Shown here in pieces: positions 791 to 49,670 of a DNA stretch of 64,000 bases. The position numbers and the translations under genes were made by a program. The notes beneath the pieces were generated by a model, which had not been told where the DNA came from, did not search any database, and saw only the letters and a program-made list of their open reading frames with translations. The number at the start of each line of letters is the position of its first letter. The first letter of the stretch is position 1. The stretch covers positions 62,001-126,000 of the forward strand of contig JALEJS010000014.1 in assembly GCA_022769545.1 (NCBI GenBank), written 5' to 3'. The stretch comes from Blautia sp. (lineage in GTDB: Bacteria > Bacillota > Clostridia > Lachnospirales > Lachnospiraceae).

Positions 791-948
791 TCTGATATCC
801 TCCTGTTTTTCCTGCTTATATCCTTTGATGTTGGCCGACAAATGAGCCTGACGTCGATTTTTCCGTGCTAAGCACTCCCAAAATCGACAAAAACATTCGC
901 AATCCGCACATTTTTCTGTAAAAAATGGCTGCTTGCTCATGTTTTGCG

Positions 949-1003
949 GGACCCATAGACATAAAAACACATGCAAGCATGTATTTTATGTCCATTTGTC
1001 CCT
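949..1003. repeat. Interrupted hairpin GGGAC..GACATAAAA..ACATGC/GCATGT..TTTTATGTC..GTCCC
   Basis: Both arms read directly; probable bidirectional terminator or REP-like element. Confidence 0.6.
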
Positions 1004-1032
1004 TGGCTCATCTTACCATGACACGGGATTTT

Positions 1033-13235: not shown

Positions 13236-13301
13236 AAACGAAAGGAGCCCCGCTCCGTAGCTGAACTGTCAAAATCAGCTATGGAGCGGGGCTCCTTTCG
13301 T
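13236..13301. terminator. Long bidirectional terminator hairpin
   Basis: CGAAAGGAGCCCCGCTCCGTAGCTGA / TCAGCTATGGAGCGGGGCTCCTTTCG, one mismatch, between convergent genes. Confidence 0.85.
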
Positions 13302-13345
13302 TATATGCCAGGTCTCACACATACTCGACCAGAATCAATCATCCA

Positions 13346-14554
13346 CTATTTTCTGAACCGCAGGAAAACCAGAAGCAGCACGATCAATGCCACCACAATG
13401 CCGATCACCGGCAGATAACGGACGATTCCGCTCTTCTCATTCAGCAGCTTCGCATCCGATGTGTTCGTTTCCTCCGTCTCATTTCCCGTCATCTGTACAA
13501 GTTCTTCCTCTTCTGCCTCTGTCACAGTCGGGTCAGGGCTCGGTGTCGGGGCATCCGTGGCAGTTGCTTCCGGACTTGGCGTCGGTGTATCCGTCGCCGT
13601 GGGCTCCGGGCTTGGCGTCGGCGTATCCGTCGGCGTAGGCTCCGGACTTGGCGTCGGTGTATTCGTCGCCGTAGGCTCCGGGGTCGGCGTATTCGTCGCC
13701 GTGGGTTTGGGACTTGGCGTCGGCACATTTGTCACAGCGGGTGCAGAAGTGATACCTGCCTCATCCAGTGTCTGCATCTGAACCAGCTCTTCCGCAGCCG
13801 GTGACGAAGCATTCTCTTCATGCTCATATTTCTTCTGCGTTTCCTCCAGATCGATCCAGCCGGTCACATCCTCGTTTTCAATCTTTCCCCACCAGCCGCC
13901 GTCTTCTGTCTCAGACTCCTGTGAGATATAAACCGGATCACCATCAAAATATTCATATCCCGGTGTTGTCTTTCCGAATTTTTCTCCGGGACCCTGATAC
14001 AGCCAGACAGAATCCTGATCCGTGTCTATCTCCGTCTCATAAGAAACTTCCTTCCCGTTTCCTCTCTGAAATTCTCTGTCGATTGCTTCCTCCAGCGTAA
14101 TGGGTTTCAGATGTTCCAGCGGAACGTATCCGTCTTCGTCCTGATATTTCGTAACACCCCAGGAGTTTCCGTCGCTTCCGGTCACCTCCCCGGTAATGTG
14201 AAGAGGCGTTCCGTTTTCCAGCGGTTTTTCTGACAGTTTCTTCCCATCGCGGGAGGGCTCTGCATAAATATATTCTCCTCCATCCGGTGACTCGATCAGC
14301 ATGTAATAATCTGTCGTGTCATCGGACGAAGCAGCCTGTGCCTCGCTTTCATGCTGCCGGATTGCTTCCCCGTTTTCCTCCTGATAACTGCTTTCATAGT
14401 CCTCTGCGGAATCGTCGGAATAATCCGCCGCATATTCGTAAGAATAATCCGTCACAGACACAAATGTATCCGGATCCGATACGTCTGCCCATACTCCTGT
14501 CACATTTAATACGCTGACCAGCAGTGCCAGCGCAGTTACGGTACGTTTTTTCAT
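13346..14554 (-). CDS. Secreted, membrane-anchored SH3-domain protein with Pro/Thr-rich stalk
   Basis: Signal peptide MKKRTVTALALLVSVLNVTGVWA; SH3-like segments; TPTPSPEPTATD repeats; C-terminal TM helix VIGIVVALIVLLLVFLRFRK. Confidence 0.75.
   Translation of the reverse strand: MKKRTVTALALLVSVLNVTGVWADVSDPDTFVSVTDYSYEYAADYSDDSAEDYESSYQEENGEAIRQHESEAQAASSDDTTDYYMLIESPDGGEYIYAEPSRDGKKLSEKPLENGTPLHITGEVTGSDGNSWGVTKYQDEDGYVPLEHLKPITLEEAIDREFQRGNGKEVSYETEIDTDQDSVWLYQGPGEKFGKTTPGYEYFDGDPVYISQESETEDGGWWGKIENEDVTGWIDLEETQKKYEHEENASSPAAEELVQMQTLDEAGITSAPAVTNVPTPSPKPTATNTPTPEPTATNTPTPSPEPTPTDTPTPSPEPTATDTPTPSPEATATDAPTPSPDPTVTEAEEEELVQMTGNETEETNTSDAKLLNEKSGIVRYLPVIGIVVALIVLLLVFLRFRK
13525..13735. repeat. 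Tandem ~36-bp coding repeat encoding TPTPSPEPTxTD
   Basis: Direct reading of gene and peptide; at least three 12-aa units plus shortened variants. Confidence 0.8.
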
Positions 14555-14698
14555 ATGCATTCTTCCTCTGTACTTCCAAACATGTTTGTCAGATTTCATT
14601 TCGCCCTAATTCACTTCATAGATAATTTCATTGTACTCTTTTCATCGAAAGCTTACAACCTATTTTTTCAGAAAATTAAGAAATAGACCACTCCCTAT

Positions 14699-14990
14699 GC
14701 CGATGATTCCGTGAAAGCTATGGAATCGCTGCTATTTTTGTGTATAAGCGTGTCGTCTATGGGTATGACCACAGATGAGCTTGTTTTGCTGCTCACCTCT
14801 CGAATTCTTATGATTACCGCCATTCGCTCGGAACTCGCTTCGCTCAGACATCTCGCTCGGTGGCGGATTTCATTCTCGAGTCTCGCTTACGCAAAACGAC
14901 GAATCATCTGCTTGTCACAGCCCATAGACATCCACGCTTTCTCACATAATTCCATCACGATTTCACACATCTTCATGGAATTCATCTGCC
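14699..14990. repeat. Long imperfect palindrome (~290 bp) in intergenic DNA
   Basis: Left AAGCGTGTCGTCTATGGG pairs with right CCCATAGACATCCACGCTT; centre CCGCCATTCGCTCGG...CGCTCGGTGGCGG; homology continues outward. Confidence 0.65.
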
Positions 14991-15078
14991 ATATACGCCA
15001 CACCCGCTGCCGTGGTCTGGTTCCAAACAAACATTTCAAGTCGAATGTACGTGAAGACTGATGTAATTTTCCTGCTTT

Positions 15079-15669
15079 CTATTTCTGCACTTCGGCTTCT
15101 TCTGCAGTTTCCTCTGCTTCCGGTGCATTGTGCGGTTCAAGAAGCATAACCACAATTTCTTCCCTGTCTGCCAGAAGATCCACATCCGGATCCGATGCGA
15201 TCGCGAGATCCTTTACCTTGATCACATCTCCCACACGAAGTCTGGACGCGTCGATTTCCACCTTTTCCACCAGTGCGGCAGGAACTGCCTTAAACGGGAT
15301 CTCCTGAAGGTTCTGCTGCAGCACACCAGTTGTCACTTTATCATGATTTAACAGAACTACCTCTGCAACAGAATGTACCTTTTCTCCACTTACAAGTGCC
15401 TGAAAATCAATTTCCTCTATCTGGCGTTTCATGGAATTATATGAGATATCCTTAATCAATACATCCAGCTGTTTTCCATCCAGTTCCAGCATAATCTGGC
15501 TTCCCTTATTTCTTGTTTTCAGCAGATGATCGATCTCGCCTTTCGGAAACTGCAGCGGTATGGAGCCTTCGATTGACTTACCAAACACGTTTCCTGTCAC
15601 ATATCCTTCTCTTCTGAGTTTCTTTGCCTTTGTCCGCATGTCTCTTCTTTCAGCTTTTAAAGTAGTCAT
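15079..15669 (-). CDS. 50S ribosomal protein L25/general stress protein Ctc
   Basis: LKAERRDMRTKAKKLRREGYVTGNVFGK; L25 TL5-like C-terminal part. Confidence 0.85.
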   Translation of the reverse strand: MTTLKAERRDMRTKAKKLRREGYVTGNVFGKSIEGSIPLQFPKGEIDHLLKTRNKGSQIMLELDGKQLDVLIKDISYNSMKRQIEEIDFQALVSGEKVHSVAEVVLLNHDKVTTGVLQQNLQEIPFKAVPAALVEKVEIDASRLRVGDVIKVKDLAIASDPDVDLLADREEIVVMLLEPHNAPEAEETAEEAEVQK

Positions 15670-46483: not shown

Positions 46484-47651
46484 TATGTATAGAATAATCA
46501 AAATCGGAATGGATGTCCATAGCACAAACTACACTTTATGTGCGATGGAACCTACAATCGAATCAGAAGACCGTATATTCGGAGAAGTGCAGGTTGCCCC
46601 GGACTATAAAGAGGTCATTTGCTTTATTGAGTCTCTGAAAATGAAACTTGGGCTCAACAATGATTATTCTATTGAATGCGGTTACGAGGCGGGTTGCCTT
46701 GGTTATACTCTTTATCACCAACTTGCAGGAGCCGGGATCAAATGTGTCATACTTGCACCGACAACTATGCTTACCCAGCAGGGTCAGCGAATCAAAACAG
46801 ATAAACGTGATGCACATCTGATCGCGCAGTGCCTGTGTTACGGCGGATATCATTCGGTATATATTCCTACTGGCGAGGATGATGCCGTCAAAGAGTATCT
46901 CCGGATGAGGGACGACCATAAGCTCGCTTTGAAGAAGCTGAAGCAGCAGATCAATGCGTTTGTTCTTAGGCACGGGTACCAGTATGCCGGGACAAAATGG
47001 ACCATAAAACATGTCTCCTGGCTGAAGAAAGTGGAACTTGATCCGATGTATCGGGAAACGCCGGACGAATACATAGCTTCCTACGAAGAACAGGAAACAA
47101 AGATCGAACGTTACGATAAGCGGATCGAAGAGATCGCTGCTGAGGCACGCTACCACGAAAACGCCAAAAAGATTGGTTGCTTTCTGGGAATCCGCACACA
47201 TACGGCCTTGTCTCTGATCGTGGAAACCGGTGACTTTAAGCGCTTCGCTAAAGGGAACACCTATACGGCATTCCTGGGGCTTGCGCCGGGAGAACATTCC
47301 AGTTCAACGAAAGTGAACCGGCTCGGCATTTCTAAAGCCGGGAATACGCATCTGCGATGTCTGTTGATAGAAGCCGCAAAAGGTATTTGCAAAGGAGCCA
47401 TCGGACATAAATCCAAAGAACTGCGCTCCAGGCAAAACGGTCAGTCTGCCGAGGTTATTGCCTATGCTGACAAAGCGAACACACGGCTGCGGAGCAGGTA
47501 TTACAAGATGATCCGTCATGGAAAGAAGAAAAATGTGGCGGTTGCTGCTGTGGCTCGTGAGCTCGCATGCTTTATTTGGGGCATGATGACTGGTAATATC
47601 AGTATCACCTCTGGAAGCGGTACATCAGTTCCGGTTGTCAGTCAAGGGTAA
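46484..47651 (+). CDS. IS110-family transposase (DEDD + Transposase_20)
   Basis: IGMDVHSTNYTLCAME; IKTDKRDAHLIAQCL; FLGIRTHTALSLIVETGDFKRFA; FLGLAPGEHSSSTKVNRLGISKAGNTHLRCLLIEAA; SD AAAGGAGG. Confidence 0.93.
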
Positions 47652-48024
47652 AATGTACCGCTACGCGGCCCTTGACATCCACCCGTCCCTGATGCAGATC
47701 GTAATCAAGCAGCAATCAGCAGTAAACTGCAGCTTGCTGCCGAAACAATAACAATTGAATATCTGTCAGTATCTGCAAGGAGTTGTGATCACTGTAAGGT
47801 TCGAGCTATCTGCGTCCTACCTATGTTGGCACTTCGGTGATCCACGCTTTTAGATCGCAGAGCTCACGGCGGAACCATTAGCCTGTCGGTAACCAATCCA
47901 CGAATAACAGAGTGGCCACATGCCGGGAACTGTTAAATCAGGGCTCCTTCCAGATGCTGACAGATCACACAAATGTGATCGTCAAGAAAAAGTTTGTCGG
48001 ATGCCAAATTTACCTCTTGACAAA
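47652..48024 (+). ncRNA. Candidate bridge/seekRNA region of the IS element
   Basis: ~370 nt noncoding 3' end inside the IS, with local hairpins (e.g. GATCACA-CAAA-TGTGATC near 47964). Function inferred from family knowledge. Confidence 0.5.
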
Positions 48025-49479: not shown

Positions 49480-49670
49480 GTTTAACCTCGCCATATCAAG
49501 CAGGTTTCCTGGCTCCAGAATCTTTGCTTCCTCTCTCCTTCTCATGCTGCTGCACAATGGCAATTGAGATTCGCTCCTCTGTTACAGTGACCGGATCGCT
49601 CAGGTTTCTCACCTGATTCCCTTTTCTGCCGCTCCCGAAGAACCGACAGCACTTCATATGTTCAATATGG
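49480..49670 (-). ncRNA. Cobalamin (AdoCbl) riboswitch
   Basis: Minus strand GGGAATCAGGTGAGAAACCTGAGCGATCCGGTCACTGTAACAGAGGAGCG...GAGCCAGGAAACCTGCTTG (B12 box). Confidence 0.88.

Follow-up and report, generated by a model that had tools for sequence, protein, structure and literature searches.

The window, i.e., the 64,000 nucleotides of Blautia sp. DNA analyzed here, contains a palindromic element of 334 bp (14685–15018) which belongs to a dispersed and probably mobile family of DNA hairpins. Between species the tip of these hairpins is constant, and their long stems are wholly different yet still paired.

The palindrome in the window is real and not a product of chance. In RNA folding against 100 shuffled sequences, the stretch from 14690 to 15000 adopted a stable fold on each strand (plus strand: −104.9 kcal/mol, z −7.54; minus strand: −112.6 kcal/mol, z −5.54), and on either strand none of the 100 shuffles was as stable. 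Of 649 further stretches of 334 nt in the window, one had two halves that were at least as complementary, and it is an ordinary terminator stem (13237–13302). This near-perfect stem of 26 bp has convergent genes on its two sides. A preliminary description, made from the sequence letters, had placed an imperfect palindrome of about 290 bp at 14699–14990. The pairings it quoted are indeed present in the sequence, but its coordinates proved too short, as the alignment of four full-length copies extends the element to about 14685–15018. These limits coincide with terminal inverted repeats, AGACCAC on the left (14685–14691, plus strand) and GTGGTCT on the right (15012–15018, plus strand), both seen in the copy alignment. 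As had also been described, the element is flanked by the gene of a GW/SH3-like surface protein (13346–14599, minus strand) and the gene of ribosomal protein L25/TL5 (15079–15669, minus strand), and it has no explanation as an open reading frame: the 116-codon frame with a GTG start that traverses it (14711–15061) has no support as a gene.

Between its terminal repeats the element consists of a left arm (14692–14778, plus strand), which is also dispersed alone at about ten further places, a conserved central region (14779–14874, minus strand) and a right arm (14875–15011, plus strand), with a complementary identity of about 80% between the two arms. The central region scores 82.2 bits with the covariance model R1, a score which is given by construction as the seed alignment of R1 contained the window sequence. 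At its center lies the conserved tip of 19 nt, TGTCTGA-GCGAAGC-GAGTT (14832–14850, minus strand). An asymmetric end motif, GGCAGCGGGTGTGGCG (14996–15011, minus strand; consensus GGCAKCGGGYGTGGCG), recurs at a similar distance from the tip in other genomes, namely 177–185 nt from the tip center in G405, part of G454 and the window genome, and 204 nt in Candidatus Equihabitans.

Dispersed copies were found by a DNA search of the own 2.96-Mb assembly, which yielded 16 matches. Four copies are full-length, namely the one in the window (contig C13) and those on C21 (90% identical), C24 (89%) and C26 (84%). Besides these, the genome harbors about ten arm-only or shortened copies, including a shortened palindrome of 207 bp (C26:23446–23652) and arm-only copies, the smallest of which is located on C18 (AGACCAC...GTGGTCT). 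The left arm includes a terminator-like hairpin, GCCGATGATTCCGTGAAAGCTATGGAATCGCTGC + TATTTTTG (14699–14740, plus strand), identified by comparison of 13 copies and overlapping a terminator scan match at 14704–14728. In ten of the 13 copies the arm sub-hairpin GGCAGYGATTCCAT...ATGGAATCGCTGCC lies 12–36 nt 3′ of a stop codon that ends a long frame, and in 11 of 13 it is followed by a T-run. The full copy on C26 is flanked by convergent genes, with its arms 12 and 19 nt past the respective stop codons; the left arm of the window copy is an exception, as no stop codon directly precedes it. A hairpin 12–36 nt behind stop codons with a subsequent T-run is the positional signature of intrinsic (Rho-independent) terminators, and with regard to this position the arms resemble intrinsic terminators in portable form, their termination activity being putative. 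Unlike such terminators, the arms are repeated, mobile-like and part of a much longer palindrome. The terminator-like position and the T-runs would also be explained if the palindromes were ordinary bidirectional terminators, repeated without mobility, with the tip being a chance survivor of common descent. This appears very improbable, as termination does not need a palindrome of 300 nt, as the tip is kept across classes on unrelated arms and around a mini-hairpin that varies but is nearly always paired, and as one family, that of the Clostridia genome G800, exhibits target duplications.

The tip was compared in 73 distinct sequences from 25 genomes, which follow the pattern 5′-TGTYTGA-[mini-hairpin]-GAGTT-3′; the invariance of these letters is partly by construction, as the pattern served to select the rows, and five loci departing from it were kept in a separate list. 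Pairing of the mini-hairpin, for which no selection was made, was observed almost throughout: the 27 versions of it, 7 to 15 nt in length, close by Watson-Crick pairs in 26 cases. The 6-bp stems flanking it are fully paired in 19 of 73 sequences versus 1% in cross-genome left/right flank controls, and have at least five pairs in 48 of 73 versus 12% in these controls. The tip occurs most often as GTTTGAGCGAAGCGAGTTTG, which forms a mirror repeat; GCGAAGC is known to fold into a DNA mini-hairpin of very high stability. A structural constraint on the small central tip is thus supported.

Other Blautia species have the minus-strand center as well, with different arms around it, and it occurs also in Candidatus Equihabitans, Robinsoniella and one further Lachnospiraceae genome. 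Of the genomes labeled here, G004 corresponds by sequence identity to Blautia massiliensis GD8, and Blautia sp. Marseille-P3087 is the counterpart of G029; the genus of the window is accordingly Blautia sensu lato. Matches to R1 were found in at least 33 of 397 Lachnospiraceae genomes and at least 32 of 334 genera (about 10% of the sampled genera), counts which are lower bounds because the filters were strict and the candidates were capped in number, and additionally in further families of Clostridia and in other families of Bacillota. The number of scored places in a positive genome frequently reached or approached its upper limit of 10 to 11, and the inspected places were the tips of long hairpins, i.e., of palindromes of 100–400 nt. 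The window genome itself contains a second such palindrome in front of the methionyl-tRNA synthetase gene (C45:54595; L023 6596–6678), which has nothing but the 19-nt tip in common with the element in the window.

The genes flanking the palindromes are unrelated housekeeping genes which differ from locus to locus. Of 26 loci with both neighbors called, 9 have convergent, 16 codirectional and 1 divergent genes, and in a count over several genomes a palindrome was located within 150 nt for 40 of the 49 3′ ends that flank these elements, versus 23 of the 38 5′ ends. All of these counts are approximate, as genes were called as simple open frames. The orientation of the tip relative to the genes is mildly biased (30 versus 19). 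G029 contains an array (loci L067 and L070) in which tip palindromes of alternating orientation are interleaved with several parS-like sites (TGTTTCACGTGAAACA), next to a ParA-like gene. In G454 (L119–L122), a repeat of its own kind, ATGAGAAACACGCTTTGCGAGTTTCTC..., about 100 bp long, is inserted in or next to the palindromes, and a TwoAYGGAY RNA motif (L108, 953–1117, minus strand) was detected near one palindrome.

Across families the arms are mostly unrelated in sequence, and they are complementary over 100–250 pairs at about 80%. In G311 and G383, members of the same genome can share their inner arms, with outer arms that differ yet pair. Mismatches in the arms comprise 439 G·T and 431 A·C; when isolated mismatches are each counted once, the numbers are 27 and 19 (p 0.30). 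As selection on the arms as RNA would predict G·T far above A·C on the functional strand, the equal numbers imply that arm complementarity is kept strand-symmetrically, as a DNA palindrome or via copying of inverted repeats. The overall make-up of the mismatches is near random, with two transversions per transition, which suggests that many unpaired stretches are merely unrelated loops. The preliminary description had viewed the scattered mismatches as expected either under selection for structure or in an aged MITE. Selection for structure is supported for the central tip, which had been taken as a loop and whose mini-hairpin pairs in nearly all versions, but is not supported for the arms with their equal G·T and A·C.

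Covariation of the tip hairpin with its closing pairs kept, covariation of the central stems, a terminator-like hairpin (GTGCGACAGCCCC) at the end of the copies in G405 and G454, and the bias of the elements to 3′ ends of genes would all fit a structured non-coding RNA or an mRNA 3′-end element, in which the tip would be a protein-bound RNA internal loop (UGUYUGA/GAGUU with tandem G-A pairs) and the arms a protective stem. We consider this unlikely, as the G·T excess of the arms on the tip strand is not significant, the promoter search revealed none above chance level, the tip is found in both orientations relative to genes, and Rfam matches were absent both for the window copy at E ≤ 1 and for the elements of 13 loci at the gathering score. 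Nevertheless, because the tip covaries and the elements are biased to 3′ ends, an RNA role keeps some weight. A known structured RNA as the identity of the element was rejected, as no Rfam 15 family matched. Elsewhere in the window, the Rfam Clostridiales-1 sRNA (843–1010, minus strand, 115.8 bits) and a Cobalamin riboswitch aptamer (49482–49668, minus strand, 89.7 bits) are present.

Arms that are specific for a locus or family and still complementary might also arise by local inverted duplication, in which the tip would seed fold-back copying of neighboring DNA, so that the arms would be inverted copies of the local flank and some products would later have spread as MITEs. Two loci are suggestive of this: at L066 the 3′ end of the secA coding sequence is contained in one arm, and an inverted copy of it in the opposite arm (18 of 21 columns), and one arm of the array in G029 contains half a parS site. 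However, only a handful of about 80 flanking coding ends exceeded the controls, and many families carry the same arms at different loci, which means that in these families the arms are part of the element. Inverted duplication as a general rule is hence not supported, and we regard it as quite improbable.

With respect to mobility, the clearest case is G800, which contains about 230 matches to a family-specific end (family ends: GGGTGCAT). Of 13 elements of 198–201 bp that were delimited in this genome, nine are flanked by exact 9-bp duplications and two more by duplications with one mismatch; a control with swapped pairs gave no duplications except for one pair, which is due to a shared end. 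Two further exact 9-bp duplications were found in G800 beyond these 13 elements. It follows that at least the G800 family transposes. Forms of 37 bp consist of the two ends only, some of them with visible duplications, as expected for an in-place loss of the hairpin. A 10-bp duplication (AATTTTCATA) flanks L166 in G329, and near-identical copies with sharp ends occur in G454 and G329. Target duplications were not found in most Lachnospiraceae families, so that mobility of these families by the same route is inferred from the G800 case. The idea of an aged MITE therefore holds in outline, with dispersed copies and a related family with target duplications; neither a target duplication in the window's own family nor a parent transposon was found.

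An IS256-type parent of the G800 elements was rejected, as such a transposase is absent from G800, and no transposon with G800-type ends was recognized in 20 stretches of this genome. Among the matches in the window genome there was no autonomous element with the same ends. In an empty-site comparison at the rsmI-trmN6 locus, the relatives were too diverged to place the ends. No recurrent transposase or mobility gene is among the 25 commonest Pfam families of flanking genes. The element has no match in phage and plasmid collections, the tip has none in viral contigs, and a scan of the latter with the 16-nt end motif gave scattered matches at chance level. Predicted coiled-coil-like proteins of 162 and 155 aa, 66% identical and from different genera, adjoin tip elements at L074 (1665–2150) and L147 (1712–2176); the one at L074 has no Pfam match. 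As a third case was not seen, such a protein was rejected as a partner of the elements. In the window, a frame resembling by eye an IS110-type transposase is followed by an imperfect palindrome of 240 nt (together about 46489–47982; palindrome 47745–47982), which is possibly the end or guide-RNA region of this frame.

By form the element is a MITE, given its 334 bp, the lack of a supported gene, four full and about ten partial copies, and terminal inverted repeats in a sequence that is palindromic throughout. Bacterial MITEs and foldback elements include Correia/NEMIS and ERIC. Like MITEs, the element is short, non-coding, dispersed and intergenic with inverted repeats, and one family has target duplications; unlike MITEs, it is almost entirely one palindrome, its center rather than its ends is conserved between families, and no parent was found. 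Integron attC sites are imperfect single-strand hairpins with variable stems as well, with their conserved boxes near the base and a variable tip. Compared by this contrast of tip and base only, the element has the reverse layout, as its tip is conserved. REPs measure 20–40 bp and carry a GTAG or CGTC tag at one end (PMC3733652), and RAYT transposases recognize the folded single strand of a REP (PMC3733652; PMC2817692). The element resembles REPs and BIMEs in being palindromic, intergenic and often downstream of genes. Identity with a REP was rejected in view of its 334 bp, its ends AGACCAC/GTGGTCT and a conserved motif located at the tip, and the text of a REP/RAYT survey does not mention Firmicutes or Clostridium (PMC3733652). 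No report of the tip motif or of such a repeat family in Lachnospiraceae was found in the open-access literature.

The explanation we favor, and consider rather probable, is a MITE-like palindromic foldback element which would spread non-autonomously, whose arms would serve as terminators and whose folded single-strand tip is presumably kept for recognition by a protein. The dispersed copies, defined ends, self-complementary arms, conserved folded tip and 9-bp duplications of a related family are its observed support. A transposase supplied in trans would act on the family-specific ends, and insertions behind genes would be tolerated and kept because each arm would end transcription, from either side if the palindrome is complete. 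Short copies would result from deletion of the hairpin in place. The tip would be kept via a protein that recognizes the folded single strand, be it extruded or replicating hairpin ssDNA or, less likely, RNA, which would explain one tip on unrelated arms. Against this explanation speak the target duplications not found in the window's own family and in most Lachnospiraceae families, and the autonomous element not found in the searches above. Further, an orientation bias of the tip is not required of an element that acts purely as DNA, and a transposase acting on the ends alone would not predict a conserved center on family-specific arms. It is this center which is worth pursuing. Somewhat unlikely, in our view, is the more far-reaching idea that an undescribed protein or system for folded single strands uses the tip as its recognition site, and that palindromes with any arms would be maintained or spread via their center, and not their ends, across Bacillota.

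Instability is generally expected of long palindromes in bacteria. Despite this expectation, a widespread family of long palindromes is built round one conserved tip, apparently as an unannotated class of repeats in many Clostridia genomes. If the tip has no dedicated recognizer, the family would still clearly exemplify mobile repeats which seemingly supply genes with terminators. If it has one, common gut bacteria would possess a new protein with a role in maintaining hairpins, in mobility or in the termination of transcription.
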